Source: Boudabousia liubingyangii (GTDB lineage Bacteria; Actinomycetota; Actinomycetes; Actinomycetales; Actinomycetaceae). Taken from it: a stretch of DNA of 64,000 bases. The notes below the pieces were generated by a model that ran no database searches, was not told the origin of the DNA, and was given only the letters and a program-made list of their open reading frames with translations. Made by a program: the position numbers and the translations under genes. Position 1 is the first letter of the stretch; every line of letters begins with the position of its first letter. Shown piece after piece: positions 39,187-44,053 of the stretch. The stretch spans positions 146,224 through 210,223 of the forward strand of contig NZ_MQSU01000001.1 in the NCBI RefSeq assembly GCF_001907245.1, written 5' to 3'.

Positions 39187-41787
39187 TCAGGCGTCCGCGA
39201 TCGGGATCGCGTGCGGTTCCCCGCTGATGCGAGAAGGCATGGAAACCACCTCGGAAACCGGACGCAAGCCCATCCACCACTGGAAGCGCGGGCGGCGGTT
39301 TTCAACCTCAACGACCTCCATCATGCGGTCAATGGGGGCGGTCTCAATCGCGTCCTCGGTCAGGCCAATGTAAACAGCCTTCGCGGCCGGCGGGACCCGA
39401 CGAGCCAAACCGTGACCGGCGGCCTCGTTAAGGGCATCTTCTTCGACCAGGGTGCGCTCTACCCAGTCCATCGCGTGGAAGACTAGGCGGGTTGCCAGTA
39501 GACGGTCGAAGGGGGTTGGCGAGCCACCCTGCTGCAGGTGACCCAGCGCGGTGTGGCGGACGTCGTAGAGGCCACGGCCTTCGCTTTCGAAGACGCGAGC
39601 TAGGAAGTCGCGGTTGTAAAGCTTGGAGGCTTCCTCATTGACTAGGACCATGAATAGGCGGCGGCCACCCTCGAAGGACTCGCGCATGCGCAGGGCGTCA
39701 CGGTTAAGCTGCTCCAGGGTCAGGCCGTCTTCGTGCAGGTAGGTAAGTTCCGCACCAGAAGCGATACCAGACATGAGGGCCAGGTAGCCGCAGCGGCGAC
39801 CCATGGTTTCAGCCACGAAGCAACGGCGGGAAGCGGCGGCGGATTCCTTGATCCGGTCTAGGGCCCAAACCGCGTTGTTTAGTGCGGTATCGGCGCCGAT
39901 CGACAGTTCTGAACCGGGTAGGTTGTTGTCGATGGAGGCCGGGACGCAGATGATCGGAATATTGAAGGCCTGGTAGCGTTCGCGTTCCTTGACCAGCTCG
40001 TAGGCGGACAGGTAGGCATTGAAGCCACCGATGATGATCATGGCGTCAATATTGTTGTTTTCAATGGCGCGACCTAGGGAGTAGAGTTCCTCGACGGTCG
40101 GGACGGGGCGGCGGGTACCTAGTTCGGCACCACCTTCGAAGGCCCAGCCTTCGACGCCATCCCAGCTGAGTTCCTCGACCTTATTGTCGATCAGGCCCTT
40201 GAAGGAGCCCTGGACACCCAGGACGGTCATGCCCTTGTCGATGCCAATGCGGACGGCCGCGCGAGCGGCGGTATTCATACCGGGGGCTAGACCGCCAACG
40301 TGTAGGACGGCGACGCGCTTGCCGGCGGCGGGGCGGCTGGCTTCTTCCCAGGCGTGCCCCGGGGACGAGGCCGCTTCCGGGCTCTGCGCGGCCACGTGAT
40401 CTAGGACCGCGTTGCGGGCGTGCTCAACCTTGCCGGTGGTCTGCTCTAGTTCCGCCAGGCGCTGCTGGGCCGGGGGTTCGACGCAGTCGGTTCCCAGGGC
40501 CTTGTTGGCCGGGGCGTAGGACGGCGGGGTGGACATGATGCGGTTGATCTGGATCATCTGCGCGAAAGAGGAACCACGCAGGCGCACGGCCGAGGTGTAG
40601 TCGCCTTCCTTGATCAGGCCCGCGACGGAGCGGGTGTCCTTCACGGCCTTCATCATGTCGATGCGGGCCACGCGGTTGTGGCGGACACCCAGGATCTGGG
40701 GTTCGTCTTCGGGGGTGGCGCGCAGGACTTCTTGGACGGCAGCGTAGCCAAGGACGGTACTCATCCAGCGGTCGTAGGCGCTGGGGGAACCACCGCGCTG
40801 GACGTGACCCAGGATGGTGACGCGGACGTCCTCGTTCATCTTTTCGGAAAGGACGTCGGCGACGTGTTGGGAGGTAATGGGGTTGCCGTGACGGTCTTGA
40901 GCGCCCTCGGCCACTAGGACTAGGGAGTCGCGACGACCGGCGGCACGACCTACGCGCAGTTTGTTGGCTAGTTCGTCTTCCCAGCCATCTTCCGGCGGTA
41001 CTTCGGGGATGAAGACGTAGTCGCAGCCGCCGGCAATACCGGCCATGAGGGGCAGGTAACCGCAGTGTCGACCCATGACCTCAACGACGAAGGTGCGCTG
41101 GTGGGAGGCGGCGGTAGAAGAGATGGCGTCGATGGCGTCGACGATGCGGTGTAGGGCAGAGTCCGCACCGATGGTCATGTCGGAGCCGACTAGGTCATTG
41201 TCGATGGAGCCGACTAGGCCGCAGATCATGAGGTTGGGGTGGGCGTCGGCCTGTTCGGCGGTGATTTCGCCCATTTCCTTTAGTTCACTGATCAGTTGGG
41301 GCCAGAGGAGGCGGAATTCGTTGGTGCCGGTGAGGGAGCCGTCACCACCGATAACGATTAGGCGGTCGATGCCGTAATCAATTAGGTTCTTGGCGGCGCG
41401 ACGCATACCTTCGTGTTCACGGAAGTCTTTGGAGCGGGCGGTACCAATGACGGTGCCACCCTTATTGAGGATGGAGGAGACGTCGGACCAGCCGAGGGGG
41501 CGGATGCGGTCTCCCCCGTCGCAGGCTCCCTGCCAGCCTTCCATGATGGCGCAGGGCTGGACACCCATGGCTAGGGCGGTACGGGCAACGGCGCGGACGG
41601 CAGCGTTCATGCCTTGGGCGTCGCCACCGCTGGTTAGTAGGCCAATTCGGTGCGAGGTGGGCGAGTTGGAGCCGTCGGCGGCGACGGTTTCGACCTCGTC
41701 TTTACTGGCCGGACGTGGATGGATATCTGATTCTTGGAGCTGGTCTAGCAGTTCTTCAGTTTCGGGGTTCTGGGCCGGTGAGCTCAC
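39187..41787 (-). CDS. Tandem-domain (eukaryotic-type) ATP-dependent 6-phosphofructokinase
   Basis: An 866-aa enzyme, over twice the usual bacterial length (about 320 aa), expected to phosphorylate fructose 6-phosphate. Two PFK domains are fused. The N-terminal one (about 47-415) has intact catalytic parts: LLTSGGDAQGMNAAVRA, GGDGS (147-151), SIDND (194-198), VMGRHCGYL and GHVQRGGSPS (327-336). The C-terminal one (about 490-850) keeps the fold but has GGLAPGMN, GGFNA (587-591) in place of GGDGS, and SIDNN (618-622) in place of IDND, so it is probably regulatory. This split, and blocks such as GGTVIGTARSKDFRE and VPASIDNNLPGSELSIGAD, follow animal/fungal PFK. GTG at 41787 is preceded by GAGGAGG. 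Confidence 0.93.
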   Translation of the reverse strand: MSSPAQNPETEELLDQLQESDIHPRPASKDEVETVAADGSNSPTSHRIGLLTSGGDAQGMNAAVRAVARTALAMGVQPCAIMEGWQGACDGGDRIRPLGWSDVSSILNKGGTVIGTARSKDFREHEGMRRAAKNLIDYGIDRLIVIGGDGSLTGTNEFRLLWPQLISELKEMGEITAEQADAHPNLMICGLVGSIDNDLVGSDMTIGADSALHRIVDAIDAISSTAASHQRTFVVEVMGRHCGYLPLMAGIAGGCDYVFIPEVPPEDGWEDELANKLRVGRAAGRRDSLVLVAEGAQDRHGNPITSQHVADVLSEKMNEDVRVTILGHVQRGGSPSAYDRWMSTVLGYAAVQEVLRATPEDEPQILGVRHNRVARIDMMKAVKDTRSVAGLIKEGDYTSAVRLRGSSFAQMIQINRIMSTPPSYAPANKALGTDCVEPPAQQRLAELEQTTGKVEHARNAVLDHVAAQSPEAASSPGHAWEEASRPAAGKRVAVLHVGGLAPGMNTAARAAVRIGIDKGMTVLGVQGSFKGLIDNKVEELSWDGVEGWAFEGGAELGTRRPVPTVEELYSLGRAIENNNIDAMIIIGGFNAYLSAYELVKERERYQAFNIPIICVPASIDNNLPGSELSIGADTALNNAVWALDRIKESAAASRRCFVAETMGRRCGYLALMSGIASGAELTYLHEDGLTLEQLNRDALRMRESFEGGRRLFMVLVNEEASKLYNRDFLARVFESEGRGLYDVRHTALGHLQQGGSPTPFDRLLATRLVFHAMDWVERTLVEEDALNEAAGHGLARRVPPAAKAVYIGLTEDAIETAPIDRMMEVVEVENRRPRFQWWMGLRPVSEVVSMPSRISGEPHAIPIADA

Positions 41788-42064
41788 GAATCCTCCTCGA
41801 TTACGGTTGGCGGTTGACGCTATTCCCTTCAAGTTTCTCACCATAGGTGGGGAAATGCATAGGTATTTAACAGCTTATGCATCAGGTCACAGTTTTCGCT
41901 ATTCTAAAAAAGTAGATTGCGCAGAAATTGGCAATCTAATACTTTTTAGCTGATTAGTTCGGCTGAGAAATTTTTACTTTTGTTAGTAACTATTTCGGAC
42001 TAGAAGTCATTTTGACTGTTTTTCAGCAAAAAACCCGATATTCAATCTAAAAGAGGGGGATAGC

Positions 42065-44053
42065 GTGAAAAGAACTTACGCGACTCTAGCAGTGGCCGCT
42101 TTGGCAGCGACTGTACTTGTCCCCGTAAGCGCCCAGGCTGAAGCCGATACCCATCCTGTATCTACGTCAGCTGACACTTACGGTCAGAAGCTAACTAAGC
42201 GCTTCGTGGTGAAGTTCAAGGAAGGCACCCGTGACGCTCGGACTGTTACTGATTCCAGCCGTCATGAAAATACCGCCCAGAAGCTCAGCTCCAGCACGCA
42301 AGATCGCGTAGCCCGGGCCGCTTCCCAGGCTGGTACCCAGGTTGAAGGCGGCAAGGCTGCCCTACCTTCGATTACCACCATTGAACTAAAGAAGCCCCTA
42401 AATGAGGCTGACGCTAAGCGCTTCATGGAGCGTGTTTCCGCTAACCCCAACGTCGAATACGTCGAACCCGACATTGAGGTTAAACAGCTTGCCGAAGTCA
42501 GTGAAGAAACCCCTGAAGCTCCGAACGATCCCCGTTTCGAAGAACAGTGGTCTCTACACAAGGAATGGGGCATTGATGTGCAGGGCGCATGGCGTCACAC
42601 CAAGGGTCGCGGCGCGACTGTCGCCGTCATTGACTCTGGCATCATCAACCACCCCGACCTACGTGATCGCTACCTAGGCGGTTACGACTTCATTTCCAGT
42701 GCCCGGATTTCTCGTGACGGCGATGGCCGTGACGACGACCCGAATGATGAGGGCGACTGGACTGAAAAGGATGCTTGTGGTTACAACAAGCCTGACCGCT
42801 TCATTTCTTCCTCTTGGCACGGTTCGCACGTGGCCGGCATCATTGCTGCCACCCAGAACAACCGCGAAGGCATTTCGGGTATTGCTCCCGAAGCTAGCCT
42901 GATTCACGCCCGCGCCCTAGGTAAGTGCGGTGGTACCTCTGCTGATATTGCCGCTGCTATTACTTGGGTTTCCGGCGGTAAGGTCCCAGGCGTACCGGTA
43001 AACGAACACCCCGCTAAGGTCATCAATATGTCCCTAGGTGGCGCTTCGAACACCTGCCCTCGCTACTACCAGGATGCGATTAACGAAGCTACCCGCCGCG
43101 GTGCCGTAATCGTGGTGGCTGCTGGTAATGAGGCTAAGGATGCCCGCAACTCCGTTCCCGCTAACTGCGATAACGTGATCACCGTGGCTGCTTCTGGTCC
43201 GACCGGTAAGCTTTCCTACTTCTCTAACTACGGACGTCGGATTGACTTGACTGCCCCCGGTGGCGATGCCCACTACAAGAACGGCACGATTCTTTCCACC
43301 GTGGACTCTGGTCGCACCACTCAGCGTTCCTTCACCTACGGTCAGATGCAGGGCACCTCTCAGGCTGCTCCGCACGTCGCTGGTGTCGCTACCCTACTGA
43401 AGGCTATGGATCCCGATCTGACCTTCGATGAGGTCCGTGACCTGCTGACTGAGAACACCAAGCCGCTAGCTTCTTGCACCAAGGGCTGTGGCACTGGGCT
43501 TTTGAACGCTAAGAAGGCTACCGATGCCCTAGCTGAACAGTTGGGTGAGACTCCGGAACCGACCCCGGCCCCCAAGCCGACCCCGAAGCCAGATCCCAAG
43601 CCCGCTCCGAAGCCAGACCCGAAGCCGGCACCTAAGCCGACCCCGCAGCCTGACCCGAAGCCGACCCCGCAGCCCGATCCGAAGCCGACCCCGCAGCCCG
43701 ATCCGAAGCCGACCCCGCGTCCGGATCCCAAGCCGACTCCGGTTACCAACCCGAGCCTATTCATGTCTCAGTACTACCTCTACCAGGGTGGCAGCACTGA
43801 GGTTCGTGGTTACAACTTCACCCCGAATGCTCGGATTACCTTCTACGTTGATAACCAGCGTTCCTACCTAGGCTCTGCCTACGCTGACCGTTTCGGTATG
43901 GTCCGCGTCCCGTGGCGCCTGTCCTACTACATCAGTGCGGGCTCGCACAACCTGATTGCGGTTGATTCCAAGACCACTAGGGTTGCGACTACTTCCTTCA
44001 CTGTTCGTAGCCGCAGCTACTACAACGGCGGTTACTACCGCTGGTGGCGCTGA
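42065..44053 (+). CDS. Secreted subtilisin-like serine protease (S8) with I9 propeptide
   Basis: A 662-aa exported protease. A Sec signal (about 1-26, cleavage near AQA), an I9 propeptide (about 44-138, ending [10 protein letters not shown]) and an S8 catalytic domain (about 155-490) follow in order. The triad is Asp190 (VIDSG), His252 (HGSHVAG) and Ser432 ([11 protein letters not shown]), with oxyanion Asn355; cysteines at 238, 288, 331, 368, 471 and 475 may pair. A Pro/Lys-rich spacer (about 498-560) leads to a Tyr/Arg-rich C-terminal domain of about 95 residues. The start is GTG with GAGGGGGA upstream. The TGA overlaps the ATG of a lipoprotein. No sortase motif is seen. Confidence 0.95.
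43554..43748 (+). repeat. Pro/Lys/Thr/Asp tandem repeats in the subtilase
   Basis: Short in-frame repeats encode PKPTPQPDP-type units; the clearest are 24-bp copies around 43630-43715. They form the extended spacer between the catalytic and C-terminal domains. Near-identical DNA copies suggest recent slippage. Confidence 0.85.

Follow-up and report, generated by a model that had tools for sequence, protein, structure and literature searches.

PFK1 is a textbook control point of glycolysis. The closest described relatives of the enzyme analysed here are the eukaryotic PFK1s (PFKM/L/P, yeast Pfk1/Pfk2), in which a catalytic N-half carries a fused C-half that has no Mg/ATP site and keeps the F' sugar pocket, with HxQQ and QWW as common motifs. 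According to a 2025 review, which still presents tandem duplication as characteristic of eukaryotic PFKs, the F2,6BP effector site of eukaryotic PFK1 derives from what was once the F6P pocket of the C-half, and a crystal structure of human PFKP has F1,6BP in this C-terminal site (PMC12203962). Bacterial PfkA (TIGR02482; E. coli, Geobacillus) belongs to the same superfamily, but is unfused and about 320 aa long. Our literature search, whose coverage of subscription journals was limited so that an earlier mention is possible, returned no description of a fused PFK from bacteria.

A fused phosphofructokinase in Boudabousia liubingyangii

The window, a stretch of 64,000 nucleotides from the B. liubingyangii contig NZ_MQSU01000001.1, holds a fused 6-phosphofructokinase gene on its minus strand at 39187..41787, which encodes 866 aa from a GTG start. 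The surrounding open frame comprises 885 codons, with its first ATG at 41844 and its end at 39187; GTG 41787 is preferred as the start because a strong ribosome-binding site read directly from the sequence, GAGGAGG (41792..41798, minus strand), stands 4 bases upstream. The GC3 of the gene is 75, compared with 72-76 in the neighbouring genes, and two sister genomes retain the nuo and GGR genes next to it. Contamination with eukaryotic DNA was considered as a source of the gene and rejected, since the neighbours are bacterial and the gene recurs in named isolates. Divergent and upstream of it, at 42065-44053 of the window, lies a gene for a subtilase (Peptidase_S8, 211.8 bits) that ends in a tail of proline/lysine repeats; the two sister loci examined showed no match to it beside the PFK.

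PF00365 matched the protein twice (619.7 bits over two stretches, E 7e-187, far beyond chance), in agreement with the preliminary description, which had recognised two PFK domains fused in one chain and had proposed to score them against the eukaryotic and the bacterial PFK models. In this comparison the protein reached 941.2 bits with the eukaryotic PFK1 model TIGR02478 (cut-off 708.4) versus 490 bits, summed over the halves, with the bacterial PFKA_ATP model TIGR02482, and each half on its own also preferred TIGR02478 (560 vs 289 bits and 384 vs 206 bits), the N-half aligning to model positions 1-375 and the C-half to 387-740. Searches against solved structures gave 691 bits for rabbit muscle PFK, 532-590 for the yeast enzymes and 212 for single-domain bacterial PFK. 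Identity to rabbit PFKM over aligned residues amounts to 52% in the N-half and 38% in the C-half. Since the corresponding values between rabbit and yeast alpha are 53% and 36%, the bacterial fused enzyme resembles the animal one as closely as the yeast enzyme does. The two halves of the Boudabousia chain are only 31% identical to each other, as in eukaryotes. Judged from its sequence, the gene product belongs, as a bacterial representative, to the family of fused PFK1 enzymes of eukaryotic type, and it differs from PfkA in length as well as in its best-scoring model, although its N-half has the same catalytic residues. The term eukaryotic-type, chosen in the preliminary description, is upheld by score, tree and residues, but does not imply acquisition from eukaryotes.

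The catalytic N-terminal half (374 aa; 40528..41649, minus strand, as for all features that follow) keeps all catalytic residues. Aligned to E. coli PfkA, whose numbering is used throughout, it retains R72, D103, G104, G124, D127, D129, R162, M169, R171, E222, R243, H249, and R252. Its GGDGS motif (41335..41349) provides the Mg-binding Asp103 and the ATP-type Gly104, and its SIDND motif (41194..41208) the catalytic base Asp127 together with Asp129, the ATP-type Gly124 standing before the motif. Asp103, Asp127, Asp129, Arg72, Arg162, Arg171, Glu222, Arg243, His249, Arg252, and the glycines at 104 and 124 are kept in all N-halves compared, with the single exception of Arg243, which is Lys in one yeast chain. 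Glycine at both 104 and 124 in a PFK goes with ATP rather than PPi as donor, and the PPi-PFK signature (Asp104, Lys124) is absent from this half.

The halves are joined by a linker of about 66 aa (40330..40527), a difference from eukaryotic PFK1; it is longer than in most relatives. Such a long linker was also seen in sister genomes of Boudabousia, while in most other members of the family just a few residues separate the matched halves. The extra N-terminal domain of yeast PFK1 is missing from the Boudabousia protein.

In the regulatory C-terminal half (362 aa; 39244..40329), the motif GGFNA (40015..40029) has Phe at 103 and Asn at 104 and therefore lacks both the Mg-binding Asp and the ATP Gly, and SIDNN (39922..39936) keeps the Asp127 equivalent with Asp129 exchanged for Asn. 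Arg77 is deleted, and HLQQ (39529..39540), in the former F6P / F2,6BP pocket, contains the Arg252 to Gln exchange that is a hallmark common to eukaryotic C-halves. Near the C-terminus, structure-database matches and residue alignment revealed QWW (39274..39282), which is also found in animal PFK (QWWLKLRP) and not in single-domain PfkA. Actinomycetaceae-type C-halves carry Phe, Leu or similar in place of Asp103, and have the Arg77 deletion and the Arg252 to Gln exchange as in eukaryotes. Because Asp103 is replaced, Arg77 deleted and Arg252 turned into Gln, catalysis by the C-half should be dead. The sugar-phosphate pocket, by alignment, is kept: Arg162, Met169, Glu222, Arg243, and His249 correspond to rabbit Arg566, Met573, Glu629, Arg655, and His661, which are residues of the F2,6BP site, and they are invariant in 15 of 15 Actinomycetaceae C-halves compared. 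Arg471 and Arg735 (rabbit numbering) are likewise present in the C-half. With respect to the nucleotide sites N1 and N2, which are new in eukaryotic PFK1, the comparison covered the phosphate arginines that match R21 and R25 of E. coli, and both halves retain them. The bacterial C-half pocket differs from the eukaryotic one in that it keeps Asp127 and Arg171, where eukaryotes have Ser and Gly; in C-halves of a second bacterial class, position 127 is mostly Asn and position 129 mostly Asp. The four motifs GGDGS, SIDND, GGFNA, and SIDNN stand exactly where they had been placed before, and the residue table bears out the division into a catalytic N-half and a converted C-half, as in animal and fungal PFK1, that had been read from them. 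An AlphaFold model of the fused PFK built from five sequences had a mean pLDDT of 57, too poor for a fold search, and was set aside.

Distribution among Actinomycetota

A match at the strength of the fused N-half was found in 178 of 200 Actinomycetaceae genomes, in open frames mostly of 750-980 aa, and the same fused architecture lies on long contigs of sister genomes, such as those of Boudabousia marimammalium and Actinobaculum massiliense. The preliminary description had suggested looking for the same length in sister genomes, where the fused architecture does recur, and had regarded the fusion as unusual for a bacterium; the latter holds for the patchy occurrence elsewhere in Actinomycetota, but not for Actinomycetaceae, in which the fused form is the norm. 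Outside this family, seven sampled genomes of the order, from three families, exceeded the cut-off, as did 14 of 295 other genomes from the rest of the phylum and 32 of 66 genomes from one other class. None of the 14 control genomes did, and no fused PFK was found on plasmids. A scan of genome contigs, which covered close relatives only, returned the fused gene from Actinomycetaceae alone. Nearly all genomes of the order search that lacked any match belong to one family, presumably Bifidobacteriaceae, users of the bifid shunt, as far as we can guess its identity. Three loci from three genomes of other classes have open frames of over 900 codons, and these fused PFKs may carry extra N-terminal sequence. 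The regulated type of PFK usually called a eukaryotic invention thus also exists, and widely, in one bacterial phylum. Since this bacterial version is conserved, the fusion must either have originated in bacteria or have entered them early.

A single fusion event and its direction of transfer

The preliminary description had called for a tree of both halves and had held that either a recent self-duplication inside bacterial PfkA or a better score to the bacterial family would speak against it. We split 29 bacterial fused PFKs, all from Actinomycetota, and five eukaryotic chains, all from opisthokonts (rabbit and two yeasts, taken as the database's own sequences from alignments), into their halves; 20 single-domain bacterial PFKs completed the data set. 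The bacterial and eukaryotic N-halves formed one clade (100/99) and the C-halves another (100/100), so that N-halves group with N-halves and C-halves with C-halves, each next to its eukaryotic counterpart. A recent self-duplication in the Boudabousia lineage was rejected by the AU test with extra sequences (dlnL 387), and neither of the two adverse outcomes was obtained. An independent duplication and fusion of bacterial PfkA, with a convergent likeness to eukaryotic PFK1, might be entertained, as bacterial PFKs are the ancestral stock and the low identity between the halves parallels that in eukaryotes. However, support for the grouping of each half with its eukaryotic counterpart is 100%, and in the data set with extra sequences a tree that forces all bacterial halves together is worse by 183-187 log units (p-AU below 1e-6; 2e-39 at dlnL 183). 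In addition, the Arg252 to Gln exchange, the Arg77 deletion, the replacement of the Mg-binding Asp by an aromatic or aliphatic residue, and the C-terminal QWW are common to both groups, and we consider such convergence extremely improbable. The tree shows that the fusion happened once, in common to the bacterial fused PFKs and animal/fungal PFK1.

The direction in which the fused gene travelled is less clear-cut. In the N-half tree the eukaryotes stand outside all bacterial fused PFKs (97/87), which, together with the patchy distribution outside Actinomycetaceae and the lack of any control genome over the cut-off (0/14), would fit a move of the fused gene from a eukaryote into Actinomycetota with subsequent spread among Actinomycetota. 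The deep bacterial diversity, which extends over several classes at 43-57% identity, argues against such an acquisition, as do the ancestral residues that bacterial C-halves hold and eukaryotes have lost (Asp127 and Arg171 in this group, Asp129 in the other class) and the C-half tree, where the eukaryotes are nested within the bacteria, beside the Actinomycetaceae-type group (98/85). We regard this direction as possible, if somewhat doubtful. The nested placement in the C-half tree points instead to a bacterial origin of the fusion, with a later transfer to some early lineage of eukaryotes, and this is also consistent with the C-half Asn129, the N-half Trp near position 54, and the QWW motif, all of which occur in eukaryotes and in Actinomycetaceae-type enzymes and mostly not in the other class. 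Against a bacterial origin stands the N-half tree, and the sampling on which it rests comprises only five animal and yeast chains on the eukaryotic side and only Actinomycetota among the fused bacterial enzymes. Alternative placements of the eukaryotes were not rejected in single-clade AU tests (p 0.32 and 0.20), nor was any of three rootings of the fused clade in a joint test on both halves (p-AU 0.57, 0.45, and 0.22), a result that weighs against either direction. We give a bacterial origin a chance that falls just short of even. On that basis, and still more tentatively, we speculate that the PFK1 duplication and fusion took place in bacteria, in Actinomycetota or a relative, before the F2,6BP signal existed, that the second half began as a sensor of the product or substrate of the enzyme itself, and that eukaryotes later plugged F2,6BP into a ready-made site.

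Proposed role of the C-half and other enzymes of the genome

Taken as a whole, the observations are probably best explained by a fused PFK1-family enzyme with an ATP-using N-half and a C-half that acts as allosteric sensor, derived from a single common fusion. Given its residues, the N-half would phosphorylate fructose 6-phosphate with ATP; the C-half would be a dead copy in which Mg/ATP binding is lost and the sugar-phosphate pocket kept, and binding of a sugar phosphate there may stabilise the active tetramer. Allosteric control of the fused enzyme, as had been raised before, is likely. It is conceivable instead that the C-half binds no ligand and persists only as a structural remnant by which the tetramer is held together, as the loss of its catalytic residues and the stability role described for the eukaryotic PFK1 C-half might suggest (review PMC12203962). 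We deem this unlikely, since the five pocket residues do not vary among the 15 Actinomycetaceae C-halves compared, a degree of conservation for which a scaffold has no need.

As to the ligand of the presumed sensor half, PF01591, the 6PF2K family (PFKFB) responsible for the synthesis of F2,6BP, an activator of eukaryotic PFK1, was found in 0 of 59 relatives, the own genome included, in a search run without a eukaryotic positive control; a bacterial host lacking a detected 6PF2K family is a further difference from eukaryotic PFK1. For this reason fructose 1,6-bisphosphate appears to be the likeliest ligand of the C-half, at about an even chance in our estimate, and with Asp/Arg in the pocket in place of the eukaryotic Ser/Gly the ligand may differ from that of eukaryotes. 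A natural enzyme with an F2,6BP-type site and no detected F2,6BP maker renders the site's original ligand directly testable. Among fructose bisphosphatases, the two classes searched yielded no class I FBPase in the own genome and a GlpX match below the cut-off.

The genome encodes just one other PFK, located on contig 3 (469768-470973). This paralogue is a PPi-type PFK of the actinobacterial PRK06555 family (NF005121; 738.8 bits vs a cut-off of 395, and only 68.5 bits with TIGR02478), and belongs to the same superfamily as the fused enzyme, but carries GGDD and PKTIDND, with the Asp and Lys typical of PPi use, where the fused PFK has Gly104 and Gly124. The PPi enzyme being reversible and running both ways, the fused enzyme could supply an irreversible, regulated forward step. 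In work by Takahashi from 1995, PPi alone reportedly served as PFK donor in extracts. The PFK described in the literature on Actinomyces naeslundii is PPi-dependent (PMC10715109), and the fused enzyme could accordingly be poorly expressed, activator-dependent or otherwise employed. For the physiology of Actinomyces, in which the PPi-dependent PFK is the enzyme described, the presence of the fused one poses a concrete question. Of 121 Actinomycetaceae genomes, 118 have a PRK06555 match above its cut-off, so that a PPi-type PFK is present in nearly all of them, usually alongside the fused ATP-type enzyme.
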